Below the pieces are notes generated by a model that had not been told where the DNA came from, did not search any database, and was given only the letters and a program-made list of their open reading frames with translations. Shown here piece by piece: positions 820 to 29,829 of a stretch of DNA of 52,136 bases (its first letter is position 1; every line of letters begins with the position of its first letter). The position numbers and the translations under genes were made by a program. Origin of the DNA: Natronomonas sp. CBA1123 (GTDB taxonomy: Archaea; Halobacteriota; Halobacteria; Halobacteriales; Haloarculaceae); contig NZ_WPCC01000023.1 in assembly GCF_009741925.1 (NCBI RefSeq), forward strand, positions 1 through 52,136. The letters run 5' to 3'.

Positions 820-880
820 TGTATGGGTTACGCCCGTCTCCGGAGGTGGAAAACCCGAAGAAATCCGGTATCGGACTGTT

Positions 881-922
881 GCTAACAGTATGTTAGTGCG
901 AAAGGTACTTAAACATTTCGCA
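881..922 (-). promoter_or_regulatory. tfb promoter: TATA box with flanking inverted repeat and HSR1-like operator
   Basis: On the minus strand the TATA element lies at 906-915 (TGTTTAAGTA). It is flanked by the 7-bp inverted repeat TGCGAAA (897-903) and TTTCGCA (916-922), so a GCGAAA BRE-like element is present on both sides. Downstream of it, at 881-897, is the palindrome GCTAAC-N5-GTTAGT, overlapping the predicted start site. The gap between palindrome and TATA is 8 nt, the same as in the cdc48 operon promoter. The rest of the 820-1109 intergenic region shows no gene; a lone GTTAGT half-site lies at 1011-1016. Confidence 0.7.
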
Positions 923-1109: not shown

Positions 1110-3479
1110 TCAGTTCAGTCGGCGGGCGGCCAGCACCGCACCGAGGATGGCCACCAGCGCGACCACCGCACCGAAGCCGGCGCCGTCACCGCTGGAACCA
1201 CCGTCGGTTTCGGTCATGTCGTCCATGCCGTCCGCCTCAGTCGTCTCGCCCATGTCGTCGTCTTCGACCGTCAGCGAGGCGTCGTCGAGGACGATGTCGC
1301 CACCCTCCGTGGTGTAGGGACTGTCCTCGCCGCCTTCGGTGTCGACGAAGTCGTACTCCTGATTGCCGTTCGTATCGAAGTGCGGCATCGCGACGGCTGT
1401 GCCGTCCTCCTCGTACGGCGTATCCAGGCTGACCTCGATGTCGGAGTGGTCACCGGCTTCGAGGTACTCGCTGGTCCCGCGGACGCTGTCGAACGTCGCA
1501 CCGTCCAGGAGCGTCCCGTCGTGAATCGTCACGAACCCGCCCTGCGAGAGGGAGGCGCTGTCGACCGTGACGGACTCGCCGTCGGTCGTCTGGTCGGAGA
1601 TGGAGACGCTCGCCTCCGGGACCGCACTCACCGTCGCGGGTGCCACGTTGGCGCTCCCGGCGACCGTGTACGGCGTGTCGTCTGCGCCTTCACTGGTGAC
1701 GAAGTCGTAGGCTTCGTTGCCGTTCGTATCGAGGTGCGGCATCGCGACGAAGGTGTCCTCGCCGCCGGGCACCTCGTCGATGGAGACGCTGACGTTCTCG
1801 TGGGTGCCGGGGCCGAGGTACTCGCTGGTGCCACGGACGCTGTCGAAGACAGCGCCGTCGAGCACCGTCGAGTCGTGCAGCGTGACGAAGCCGCCGTTGT
1901 GCAGCGTGACGCTGTCCACAGTGACCGTGTCGGAGACGTCCTCCTGACCGGTGAACGTCACCTGTGCCTGTACGCTCGCTCGGTAGGTGTCGATAACTGC
2001 GCCGCCGTTGGCAGTGTAGGGGCCGTCTTCGGCGCCTTCACTGCTCACGAAGTCGTACTCCTCGTTATCGTTGGTGTCCCGGTGGGCCATCGGGATGGCC
2101 GTCTGGGAGGTCTTCATCGGTTCGTCCAAGGTAACCTCCACGTCGGAGTGGAAGCCGGCTTCGAGGTACTCGCTCGTGCCACGGACGCTGTCGAACGTCG
2201 CCCCGCCGAGCAGCGAACTGTCGTGAATCGTCACGAAGCCGCCCTCCGAGAGGTCGACGTGGTGGACCGTCACGGTGTTGCCGTTGGATTCCTGCTGGGA
2301 ACCGGAGACCAGCGCCGAAACCGTCGCGTTGGCGGTGTCGACGACCGCGTCACCGGAGTCGGTCGTGTACGGACCGTCCTGTTGGCCCTCGCTGTCCGGG
2401 AAGTCGTAGGCCTCGTTGTCGTTGGTGTCCTGGTGAGCCATCGGAACGAGCGTGTCGTCCTCTTCGAGCGGCTCGTCCAGCGTCACGTGGATGTCCTTGT
2501 GCGTGCCGGGTTCGAGGTACTCGCTGGTGCCGCGGATGCTGTCGAAGACATCGCCGTCGAGCACCGTCGAGTCGTGAACCGTCACGAACCCGCCGTTCGG
2601 CAGGAACGCCTCGTCGACAACGACGAAGTTCCCGCCCGTGTTCGTGTCGCTCATCGAGACGCTGGCCTCGTCGGTCGGCGTCACTGCCGCCGTGTCGACC
2701 GCGATACCGAGGTCGGAGTTGGGGTCCTCGAACGGCCCGTCCTCGTCGCCCTCGCTGGTGACGAAGTCGTACTCGCCGTTGTCGTTGGTGTCCTTGTGCG
2801 GCATCGGGATGATGGTGTCCTCGTTGTCGAGCTCGTCGTCGAGTTCGACCCGGACGTCCTCGTGGACGCCCGCAGAGAGGACGCCGCTGACGCCGCGGAC
2901 GCTGTCGAAGGTGTTGCCGTCCAGAAGCGAACTGTCGTGAATCGCCACGAAGCCGCTCTCGGAGAGTTCGACGCGGTCGACGGAGACCGACGAGCCGCCG
3001 GTCGACTGGTCGGACATACTGACCGTCGCGCTGGCGGTCACGTTCGCGCTGTCGACGACGATGTCGCCGTCCTCGTTCGTCGAGGGACCGTCTTCCTCGC
3101 CACCGCTGGAGACGAACTCGTAGGTTCGGTCGCCGTCGGTGTCGAGATGCGGCATCGCGATGAGCGTATCGTCCTCGGTGAGCGGCTCGTCCAGCGTCAC
3201 GGTGACGTTGCTGTGGTTCCCGGCTTCGAGATAGCCGGACGTGACACGAACGCTCGTGAGTACTGCCTCGCCACCGTCGTTGAGGCTGGAGTCGTGAATC
3301 GCGACGAACCCGCCTTCGGGCAGGTACACGTCGTCGACGACGACCGTGTGGCCGCCGCTCGTCTGGTCTGAAATCGATGCTGAAGCTACGTGGTTTGCCG
3401 ACACGACGCCCACTCCGGCGGTCGCGACGCTCGCGACCATGAGCAGTGTCATGACGACTGCACCTATGCGTCGATGCAT
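1110..3479 (-). CDS. DUF7282 six-repeat surface protein with PGF-CTERM anchor
   Basis: A 789-residue secreted cell-surface protein. Starting at this ATG gives a basic residue pair and a hydrophobic signal peptide (residues 1 to about 28, ending near SANH). Six DUF7282 modules of about 117 residues follow. Each carries a GGFV-[AT]-[IVL]-HDS/DGT motif, a YLE/LxxGxH segment and a P-H-x-D-T-[ND]-x-[ND]-x-x-YDF motif. A Thr/Asp/Ser/Gly-rich linker leads to a C-terminal hydrophobic helix preceded by GAGFG and ending in AARRLN. That tripartite tail is the PGF-CTERM type, processed by archaeosortase A with replacement by a lipid anchor. A TATA box at 3496-3506 is about 23 nt upstream, which fits this start and a leaderless transcript. 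An in-frame ATG 51 nt upstream lies beyond the TATA box and is unlikely to be used. Ligand or role is unknown. Confidence 0.9.
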   Translation of the reverse strand: MHRRIGAVVMTLLMVASVATAGVGVVSANHVASASISDQTSGGHTVVVDDVYLPEGGFVAIHDSSLNDGGEAVLTSVRVTSGYLEAGNHSNVTVTLDEPLTEDDTLIAMPHLDTDGDRTYEFVSSGGEEDGPSTNEDGDIVVDSANVTASATVSMSDQSTGGSSVSVDRVELSESGFVAIHDSSLLDGNTFDSVRGVSGVLSAGVHEDVRVELDDELDNEDTIIPMPHKDTNDNGEYDFVTSEGDEDGPFEDPNSDLGIAVDTAAVTPTDEASVSMSDTNTGGNFVVVDEAFLPNGGFVTVHDSTVLDGDVFDSIRGTSEYLEPGTHKDIHVTLDEPLEEDDTLVPMAHQDTNDNEAYDFPDSEGQQDGPYTTDSGDAVVDTANATVSALVSGSQQESNGNTVTVHHVDLSEGGFVTIHDSSLLGGATFDSVRGTSEYLEAGFHSDVEVTLDEPMKTSQTAIPMAHRDTNDNEEYDFVSSEGAEDGPYTANGGAVIDTYRASVQAQVTFTGQEDVSDTVTVDSVTLHNGGFVTLHDSTVLDGAVFDSVRGTSEYLGPGTHENVSVSIDEVPGGEDTFVAMPHLDTNGNEAYDFVTSEGADDTPYTVAGSANVAPATVSAVPEASVSISDQTTDGESVTVDSASLSQGGFVTIHDGTLLDGATFDSVRGTSEYLEAGDHSDIEVSLDTPYEEDGTAVAMPHFDTNGNQEYDFVDTEGGEDSPYTTEGGDIVLDDASLTVEDDDMGETTEADGMDDMTETDGGSSGDGAGFGAVVALVAILGAVLAARRLN

Positions 3480-3495
3480 ATCACACCGTTCTGGG

Positions 3496-3506
3496 ATATA
3501 TAAAAA
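3496..3506 (-). promoter_or_regulatory. TATA box of the DUF7282 surface-protein gene
   Basis: The minus strand reads TTTTTATATAT here, centred about 23 nt before the ATG at 3479. That is the usual spacing for a leaderless haloarchaeal transcript, and it rules out the upstream ATG at 3530. Confidence 0.65.
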
Positions 3507-3673
3507 GGCGTTTGCCGAACTGCCACCCAAATTCGACCCACAGCCGTCCGAATTACGGGGTCGTATGCCTATTTTGATGCGGACGTGAGAACTCTCGCCG
3601 CGAGCTGGTTACCAAAAACGTACTGGCCGAACGGCGCGGGAAAATCAGGTGGACGGGGCAGGTAAGCGGTGGG

Positions 3674-4035: not shown

Positions 4036-4320
4036 TCAGATCACTTTCCCGATTATCTCCTCGACGGTGTCCCAGTGGACGCGGGCCGCCTCCGTCGGGA
4101 GGTACACTTTCCCGTAGTCGTCGCCGCTGTCGGTGACGACGTTGTTCTCCTCGAGGACATCGAGGTGGTGTCTGACTGTCTTGTAATCCAACTCGAGGTC
4201 CTCAGCCAACTGGTTGGCGTTTCGCGGCCGCTCGTCGAGTGCACGCAGAATGCGGGCGCGGTTGGCACCGCCACGCGTGCCCGAGAGTACGTACCAGAGG
4301 GCCGCCTCCATTAGCGACAT
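4036..4320 (-). CDS. Winged helix-turn-helix transcriptional regulator (ArsR-like)
   Basis: A 94-residue DNA-binding protein. After a short hydrophobic N-terminus (ALWYVLSGTRGG) comes a complete winged HTH. ANRARILRALDERPRNANQL forms helices 1-2, LDYKTVRHHLDVLEENNVV is the recognition helix, and DDYGKVYLPT is the wing. No metal-binding cysteines are present. I chose ATG 4320 because a TATA-like stretch on the minus strand (about 4338-4345) is 20-25 nt upstream; the ATG at 4332 would be too close. It is probably co-transcribed with the small membrane protein downstream, and the pair may form a membrane-coupled regulatory unit. Confidence 0.85.
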   Translation of the reverse strand: MSLMEAALWYVLSGTRGGANRARILRALDERPRNANQLAEDLELDYKTVRHHLDVLEENNVVTDSGDDYGKVYLPTEAARVHWDTVEEIIGKVI

Positions 4321-4387
4321 CCACACATCCAAACGACGTAAAATAGGGGGGTATCACTTCGATGTCATAGCGGTAACAGCGCGGAAA

Positions 4388-4496: not shown

Positions 4497-5750
<1,254 letters not shown>

Positions 5751-27286: not shown

Positions 27287-29554
27287 TTACTGGAACGTCC
27301 GGCTAATTTCGGGCTCGTCAGGTTCGCTGCCGTGGGTGAACTTCTCTTCGAGTTCCTCGTAGCGCTCCCGGACGTCCTCGTCGACGCTGGCACCGACTTC
27401 TTCGAGTGCCTGCTCGAAGTGCTCGCGAGTCACGCGGACGTTCTCGACGCTGGTCGCAGCCTCCTCGGGGGAGACGCTGTTGACGAACTCCCGGGTTGCG
27501 GCCATGGCGGCCTCCCGGCAGAGCGCCTCGATATCGGCGCCGACGTAGCCGTCGGTTTCGGCGGCCAGTTCGTCGAGGTCGACGTCGTCGGCCAGCGGCT
27601 TGTTGCGCGTGTGGACCTCGAAGATGGCCTTCCGTGCGTCCGTATCGGGGACCGGCACGTGGACGTGTCGGTCCAGTCGACCGGGGCGCAACAGTGCCGA
27701 GTCGATGAGGTCCGGCCGGTTCGTCGTCGCGATGACGACCACGTCCTCGAGCTGTTCGAGGCCGTCCAACTCGGTCAGCAGCTGGGAGACGACCCGTTCG
27801 CCGACACCGGAGTCGCCCATGCGGGCGCCGCGTTCGCCGGCGATGGAGTCGATTTCGTCGAAGAAGACGACGGTCGGCGCGTTCGACCGCGCCTTCTCGA
27901 ACACCTCCCGGACGCCCTTCTCGGACTCGCCGACGTACTTGTTGAGCAGCTCGGGACCTTTGATGGAGATGAAGTTCGACTGGGCCTCGTTGGCGATGGC
28001 CTTCGCCATCAGGGTCTTCCCGGTGCCGGGCGGGCCGTACAGCAGGACGCCCTTGGCGGCCTGCATGTCCATCTGCTCGAACACCTCGGGGTACTCCAGC
28101 GGCCACTGGATGGTCTCACGGAGGCGCTCTTTGGTGTCTTCGAGTCCGCCGACGGAGTCCCACGTGGTGTCGGGGACTTCGACGAACACCTCCCGCATCG
28201 CACTCGGCGTCACGTCCTTGAGGGCGCCCTTGAAGTCGCCCTCCGTAACCTGCATCGCCTCGAGTATCTCGGCGTCGATTTCGTCGGCTTCGAGGTCGAG
28301 TTCGGGCCGGATACGTCGCAGGGCGTTCATCGCGGCCTCCTTCGTCAGGCTCTCGATGTCGGCGCCGACGAACCCGTGGGTGTTCTCGGCGTAACGGTCG
28401 AGGTCGATGCCGTCGACCAGGGGCATCCCGCGGGTGTGGACCTGCAGGATTTCCTTGCGGCCCTCCTTGTCCGGGACGCCGATTTCGATTTCGCGGTCGA
28501 AGCGACCGCCCCGGCGCAATGCGGGGTCGAGTGCGTCGACGCGGTTGGTCGCACCGATGACGATGACGTCGCCACGCTCGTCGAGGCCGTCCATCAGGCT
28601 GAGCAGTTGGGCGACGACACGGCGCTCGACGTCGCCGCTGGTCTCGCCGCGCTTCGGCGCGATGGAGTCGAGTTCGTCGATAAAGACGATGGCCGGGGCG
28701 TTCTCGGAGGCCTCCTCGAACACCTCACGGAGTTGCTCCTCGCTTTCCCCGTAGTACTTCGACATGATTTCGGGGCCGGAGATGTTCGTGAAGTGGGCGT
28801 CTATCTCGTTGGCGACGGCCTTCGCCATCAGCGTCTTCCCGGTCCCCGGCGGGCCGTGTAGCAACACCCCTTTGGGCGGTTCGATGCCGAGCTGTTGGAA
28901 CAGCTCCGGGTGTCGCATCGGGAGCTCTATCATCTCCCGAACCTGCTCGAGTTCGTCGTCGAGCCCACCGATGTCCTCGTATCGCACCGAGGGAGTCCCG
29001 TCGCCCCCTGCGGCCGTGCTGTCGCCGGTGTCGGCGATTTGTTCAGCGGGCTTTTCGCTCACCTGGATGTCCGTCGAATCGGTGACGACGACCGTCCCGT
29101 CGGGGTCAGTGTCGGCGATTTTCAGCGGAATGCGCTGTCCGCTCTGTGAGGACAGCGGCCCGAGACCGAGCGAGAACGGGACGTTTTGCCCCTTGGTGAC
29201 GGCCTGTCCGCTGAGTTTGTCGCGGATGTGCGGGCCGATGTTCCCGCGGATGCGGAGGTTCTGCGGTAGCGCGACCGTCACCTGCTTTGCGGGGTTGACG
29301 TCGGCGGCCTCGACCGTCACGCGGTCGTCGATGCCGACGTTGGCCTCCTGTCGGAGGCGGCCGTCGATGCGGATGACGCCCTGGCCTTCGTCCTCGGGGT
29401 AGCCGGGCCACACCCGGGCGACGGCGCGGCCGTCACCCTCGATGAGGATGTAGTCACCGTTCTCGAGGCCGAGTTCGGCCATCGCCGCGCGGTCTATCGC
29501 CGCCAGTCCGCGACCGGCGTCTTTCTGTTTGAGGGGTTTGACCGTCAGTTTCAT
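27287..29554 (-). CDS. cdc48: Cdc48/VCP-like AAA ATPase
   Basis: A 755-residue double-ring unfoldase. The N-domain (residues about 1-180) is followed by D1, with Walker A GPPGTGKT near residue 235 and Walker [13 protein letters not shown]2 has a second GPPGTGKT near 510 and [11 protein letters not shown]. Both SRH regions ([40 protein letters not shown]) are intact. Archaeal Cdc48 unfolds substrates, likely for the proteasome. The C-terminus ends ISRTFQ, lacking the HbYX tail seen in some proteasome partners. It lies 3 nt downstream of the DUF7127 gene in an evident operon whose promoter carries an HSR1-like palindrome. Confidence 0.95.
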
Positions 29555-29557
29555 CGG

Positions 29558-29794
29558 TTATCGCTCCACCTCGATAGTAACGATTCCGTTGTTCATAATA
29601 GCACGGGATGCCCCCTCGGGCACTTCGTACTCGTACTGTTCGTCGTCGACGACCACGATAGCCGTCCCGTCGACGACGTCAACACCCCCTTCGACGGGGC
29701 CAAAGTCCGCGACGAGGACCGCGCCGTCGTCGTACTCGTACTGACGAACGATGCCGTCCGCGTCGCCGCGAATCGACTGCGTGTATTCAGTCAT
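29558..29794 (-). CDS. DUF7127 family small Hsp20-like protein
   Basis: A 78-residue protein, all beta by pattern. The segments DGAVLVADFGP, VDVVDGTAIVVVDDEQYEYEVPEG and IMNNGIVTIEVER resemble the ends of an alpha-crystallin domain, with the C-terminal N-x-G-[VI]-[LV] motif of Hsp20 proteins. It forms an operon with cdc48 (3-nt gap). The same gene pairing, a small Hsp20 with cdc48, occurs in the Archaeoglobus heat-shock operon, which supports a chaperone-like role feeding Cdc48. Confidence 0.82.
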   Translation of the reverse strand: MTEYTQSIRGDADGIVRQYEYDDGAVLVADFGPVEGGVDVVDGTAIVVVDDEQYEYEVPEGASRAIMNNGIVTIEVER

Positions 29795-29829
29795 ACTAAC
29801 TCAGAGTTAGTTACCATAGTATTTAAACC
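29795..29829 (-). promoter_or_regulatory. DUF7127-cdc48 promoter with HSR1-like palindromic operator
   Basis: A TATA box (minus strand GGTTTAAATA, 29820-29829) lies about 30 nt before the ATG. Between them, at 29795-29811, is the perfect palindrome ACTAACTC-A-GAGTTAGT, which can also be written ACTAAC-N5-GTTAGT. It abuts the start codon and covers the predicted transcription start, so a bound repressor would block polymerase. The 8-nt gap to the TATA box matches that of the tfb promoter at 881-915. Confidence 0.78.

Follow-up and report, generated by a model that had tools for sequence, protein, structure and literature searches.

What links the promoter of a general transcription factor gene to that of an AAA ATPase operon in the haloarchaeon Natronomonas sp. 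CBA1123, such that the two carry the same palindrome at the same spacing? Both loci lie in the stretch of 52,136 nucleotides analyzed here (the window) and both are on the minus strand. The first is tfb (1-819, with its start codon at 819-817 and its reading frame running past the window edge), which codes for a TFIIB homologue with a zinc ribbon and cyclin repeats (Pfam TFIIB, 3e-29; Zn_Ribbon_TF, 2e-18) and is preceded by a 5' leader of about 60 nt that is possibly structured (820-880, minus strand). The second combines duf7127 (29558-29794), the gene for a 78-aa protein of the Pfam family DUF7127 with a predicted minimal alpha-crystallin (Hsp20-like) domain, and cdc48 (27287-29554), the gene for a 755-aa AAA ATPase with CDC48_N, CDC48_2, and AAA domains, whose start lies 3 nt past the duf7127 stop codon. 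A first-pass annotation, made from the letters of the window, had noticed GCTAAC-AGTAT-GTTAGT at 881-897 in the tfb promoter and ACTAAC-TCAGA-GTTAGT at 29795-29811 in the cdc48 promoter and had proposed that one particular TFB and proteostasis genes form a small regulon; both palindromes are present letter for letter.

The same annotation had placed each 17-nt palindrome 8 nt from a 10-mer, TACTTAAACA at 906-915 and TATTTAAACC at 29820-29829, which it read as a TATA box on the plus strand. The spacing holds and the strand does not: the true TATA boxes are TTTAAGTA (906-913, minus strand) for tfb and TTTAAATA (29820-29827, minus strand) for duf7127-cdc48, and since both transcription units run along the minus strand, the operators lie downstream of the TATA box. 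In both promoters 9 nt separate the 8-nt TATA core from the 15-nt core of the operator, CTAAC-N5-GTTAG (882-896 at tfb). Read in the direction of the genes, the two loci thus share the order BRE, TATA, 9 nt, CTAAC-N5-GTTAG, and start codon, with a BRE-like CGAAATG at 914-920 (minus strand) upstream of the tfb TATA box. The operators themselves, which we assign to neither strand, differ in their distance from the start codon, 62 nt from the core at tfb and 1 nt at duf7127, where the palindrome adjoins it. Given the usual distance from TATA to start, transcription would begin inside the operator at both promoters, which is the position expected of a repressor site.

In the 3.45-Mb genome, CTAAC-N5-GTTAG occurs exactly twice, before tfb and before duf7127-cdc48, and there is no other exact match, coding or noncoding. 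A first-order Markov model leads one to expect 0.007 such sites in the window and 0.44 per genome. The relaxed pattern HTWACN5GTWAG yielded four further sites in the whole genome, none of them beside a TATA box, and a search for a larger regulon with one mismatch or with relaxed half-sites recovered extras that nearly all fall in coding sequence or away from a TATA box. The simplest alternative is that the operators are fortuitous palindromes in AT-rich promoter DNA. Exact sites do arise by chance about once or twice per haloarchaeal genome: the pattern written backwards, used as a control, has two sites in the same genome and roughly one per relative, and 16 of the 73 exact sites in other genomes for which we inspected the surrounding DNA are background-like, many of them inside open reading frames. 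The other 57, however, precede just two genes, with 45 before duf7127-cdc48 and 12 before a TFB gene.

Within the order as a whole, 88 of 116 genomes possess an exact site, and the cdc48 locus was retrieved from 26 genomes that lack it. In 25 of these, CTTAC, ATTAC, ATAAC, GTTAC, or GTAAC followed by N5-GTTAG stands in the same place before cdc48; the exception, genome L202, has only a distant cdc48 with 42% identity. The operator was found in every one of the 70 cdc48 promoters examined, with a TATA gap of 9 nt in 69 of them, and the profile of these promoters reads GAAA-n2-TTTATATA-n9-CTwAC-n5-GTTAG, in which the GAAA occupies the position of the BRE-like element of tfb. The genome-wide and order-wide counts, together with this conservation, rule out a chance origin, to which we give virtually no weight.

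At the TFB genes, conservation was surveyed in the promoters of 90 paralogues and in those of three named genomes. Sites with the same spacing were detected in eight haloarchaeal families (f1, f3, f4, f5, f6, f8, f11, and f12), and in the TFB promoters of Haloferax gibbonsii and H. denitrificans the site takes the form CTTAC-N5-GTAAG. Most operator-bearing genomes have it at a single TFB, and two genomes of f12 have it at two. The gap between TATA and operator is 9 nt in 36 of 47 TFB sites as scored; six more were scored to another TATA farther upstream, but a box lies at 9 nt in these as well, giving at least 42 of 47. Several genomes of f1, f5, and f10 have no site at the TFBs checked, which were a subset of their paralogues, and in Halobacterium salinarum (L349), the organism of the heat arrays, the cdc48 site is kept and the TFB site retains the left half only, at the same spacing. 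In the TFB tree the operator-bearing members cluster, with four label changes against 19 in shuffles; the backbone is unresolved and the tree does not show a single origin for them. The first-pass annotation had named two outcomes that would refute its proposal, many equally good matches inside coding regions and a lack of conservation at tfb orthologues, and neither was observed. The conservation at these orthologues, together with the uniqueness of the pair in the genome, supports the proposed regulon of a specific TFB and proteostasis genes.

With regard to the regulator, CTAAC-N5-GTTAG is the published operator of HSR1, a Phr-like heat shock repressor from Archaeoglobus fulgidus, where it lies upstream of the regulator's own operon with hsp20 (PMC9133787; the HSR1 regulon is that of Rohlin et al. 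2005, as described there), and both operators in the window match it. Elsewhere in the phylum, in Archaeoglobi-like genomes, exact copies of the motif stand before an HTH_5 gene (hsr1) and before Hsp20 genes. Most gaps there are 8 to 10 nt, and the Archaeoglobi HSR1 members combine HTH_5 with HTH_Cmi2_C domains. A profile of the Archaeoglobi-like proteins recovered a single full-length HSR1 homologue in each of 39 haloarchaeal genomes (39/39), the one in Natronomonas sp. CBA1123 being encoded at 1503-2180 of contig C3 of assembly G000 (profile search, E = 6e-53), on another contig than the cdc48 operon. The closest solved relative of the haloarchaeal HSR1 profile is Phr (PDB 2p4w, 8e-37), which is also the best fold match of the predicted model (2.4e-9), in which residues 75-117 are uncertain; the Phr/HSR1 family constitutes arCOG01684 and is present in most euryarchaea (PMC5852551). 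The helix-turn-helix residues, including those of the PKAV..HL helix, are largely common to the haloarchaeal and Archaeoglobi-like members. On the basis of these sequence comparisons, the regulator that the first-pass annotation had left unnamed can be named, as a candidate, HSR1.

The promoter of hsr1 itself in Natronomonas sp. CBA1123 has no good operator, its best having four mismatches, so autoregulation of the A. fulgidus type is not evident here. In some families (L163, L170, L175, and L176), CTAAC-N5-GTGAA or GTTAA overlaps the hsr1 start codon, around -15, and such a half-degenerate operator might possibly allow weak autoregulation. The lack of a good operator at hsr1 also bears on a competing interpretation, namely, that the sites belong to another ArsR/MarR-like regulator that shares the CTAAC half-site, with the haloarchaeal HSR1 having another role. 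Haloarchaea have many winged-helix regulators, and binding of HSR1 at CTAAC-N5-GTTAG is known only outside them. Nevertheless, we regard this interpretation as quite improbable in view of an operator identical to the one published for HSR1, the single full-length homologue in all 39 genomes examined for it, the retention of its helix-turn-helix residues, and the occurrence of the motif before hsr1 itself in related non-halophiles.

DUF7127 is a family of unknown function whose gene lies directly before cdc48 across haloarchaea, in the place held by hsp20 in Archaeoglobus. A profile of the family against solved Hsp20 chains gave an E value of 8e-4, and the top Foldseek matches of its predicted model are sHSPs, with a probability of about 1 but E values near 0.02; the match of DUF7127 to Pfam HSP20 is not significant. 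We propose with moderate confidence that DUF7127 is a minimal, diverged Hsp20.

Published heat responses involve genes of the same kinds. Upon a shift to 49 C, Halobacterium NRC-1 shows increases of 5.6-fold for cdc48b, 3.4-fold for cdc48d, and 2.4-fold for tfbG (PMC1971269), and in Haloferax volcanii the tfb2 mRNA is up to eight-fold higher on heat (PMC2121645); the heat-induced cdc48b, tfbG, and tfb2 are putative counterparts only of the operator-bearing genes. We suggest that in the unstressed cell a winged-helix dimer of HSR1 would cover the start site of both promoters, in the interval that separates the TATA box from the start codon, and block the loading of RNA polymerase at tfb and duf7127-cdc48. 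Heat or protein damage would release HSR1, and the release would bring about a joint rise of a small chaperone together with the Cdc48 unfoldase and of one specific TFB, which in turn would help transcribe further heat shock genes that have no operator. This model, with operators of the HSR1/Phr family at both promoters, strikes us as highly probable. The sites themselves, unique in the genome and rigidly placed, their conservation, the HSR1 homologue, and the match to the published operator are observed, whereas binding in haloarchaea, repression, release on heat, and the downstream role of the TFB are inferred. We propose that the HSR1 regulon extends, in haloarchaea, to a general transcription factor.

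A different reading of the TFB arm deserves consideration: direct HSR1 control of duf7127-cdc48 would be real, while the tfb site would serve mild autoregulation or the steady-state balancing of the TFB paralogues, with no heat cascade. This would sit well with the weaker conservation of the TFB site relative to that at cdc48, its degenerate form in Halobacterium, and the genomes in which the TFBs checked have none, and also with the absence of an apparent phenotype in tfbG knock-outs of NRC-1 (PMC2121645). We nonetheless consider it rather unlikely, as the tfb site shares its placement and spacing with the one at cdc48 and haloarchaeal TFBs are known from published work to be induced by heat. 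A two-tier switch, in which HSR1 would hold Cdc48 and a dedicated TFB in check and the freed TFB would reach chaperone genes without an operator, is the arrangement toward which we lean, if only slightly.

Two further aspects of the tfb locus may be mentioned. Across 37 leaders of TFB genes the mean fold z was -0.84, compared with -0.33 for the DNA upstream and -0.02 for coding sequence; RNAalifold on a MAFFT alignment of the tfb leaders gave no consensus pairs, and the tfb leader had no match in Rfam. In related leaders (those of L045, L118, L121, and L126, among others) a hairpin is often possible, with letters that change between genomes, as in GGGTAA..CAGCG/CGCTG..TTACCC of L121. As the leaders are slightly more structured than the controls, a structured tfb leader stays a lead. 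Directly upstream of tfb, the gene at 1110-3530 (minus strand) codes for a large protein that is predicted to be secreted: it has a signal peptide, a unit of about 110 residues that is repeated several times, and a membrane segment at the C terminus. Beyond it, a small HTH protein is encoded at 4036-4332 (minus strand), adjoining the gene at 4497-5741 (plus strand) for a TnpB-like protein of the IS200/IS605 type with a CxxC zinc ribbon motif (RRCSHCG).

Compared with known systems, the arrangement is closest to the HSR1 regulon of A. fulgidus, with which it shares the operator, the repressor family, the target cdc48 together with an Hsp20-type protein (a putative one here), and the location of the operator just downstream of the TATA box. 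In Natronomonas sp. CBA1123, in contrast, hsr1 lies apart from cdc48 and lacks a clear operator, whereas in A. fulgidus it is the first gene of an autoregulated operon; further, DUF7127, as a putative diverged Hsp20, takes the place of Hsp20, and the targets include a TFB. Phr of Pyrococcus furiosus is likewise a homologous regulator that acts on hsp20 and an AAA ATPase gene and that, bound over the start site, blocks RNA polymerase, but its site is a 29-bp sequence with TTTA, TGGTAA, and AAAA elements (PMC9133787), and the literature covered does not mention a TFB among its targets. In the haloarchaeal system of Lu et al. 2008 (as given in PMC9133787), a heat-induced TFB paralogue that acts on hsp5 drives small heat shock genes via the core promoter. 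No regulator of that TFB had been named, and the operator described here supplies a candidate. A broader parallel is offered by the bacterial heat shock factor sigma-32, a transcription specificity factor raised by stress; the haloarchaeal factor differs in being a TFIIB homologue, with a DNA-bound repressor as its proposed control.

According to a 2022 review, halophiles had yielded no mechanism of the HSR1 or Phr type (PMC9133787), and we found no report of an HSR1 operator or of a TFB as its target in haloarchaea in the searchable literature. Haloarchaea keep many TFB paralogues, and an HSR1 operator before a TFB gene would explain how a particular one of them is raised on heat. The core promoter of hsp5 is enough for heat induction in haloarchaea, with heat-raised TFB2/TfbB proposed as the driver (PMC9133787), and the operator would supply the missing first step of this TFB-driven induction. 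The operator, the candidate regulator gene, and the targets can now be named, and the arrangement is kept across the order, including the genetically tractable Haloferax. If true, the two-tier switch would unite the repressor model of Phr and HSR1 with the general-factor model of TFB2/TfbB acting on hsp5, which have so far been treated as separate in archaea.
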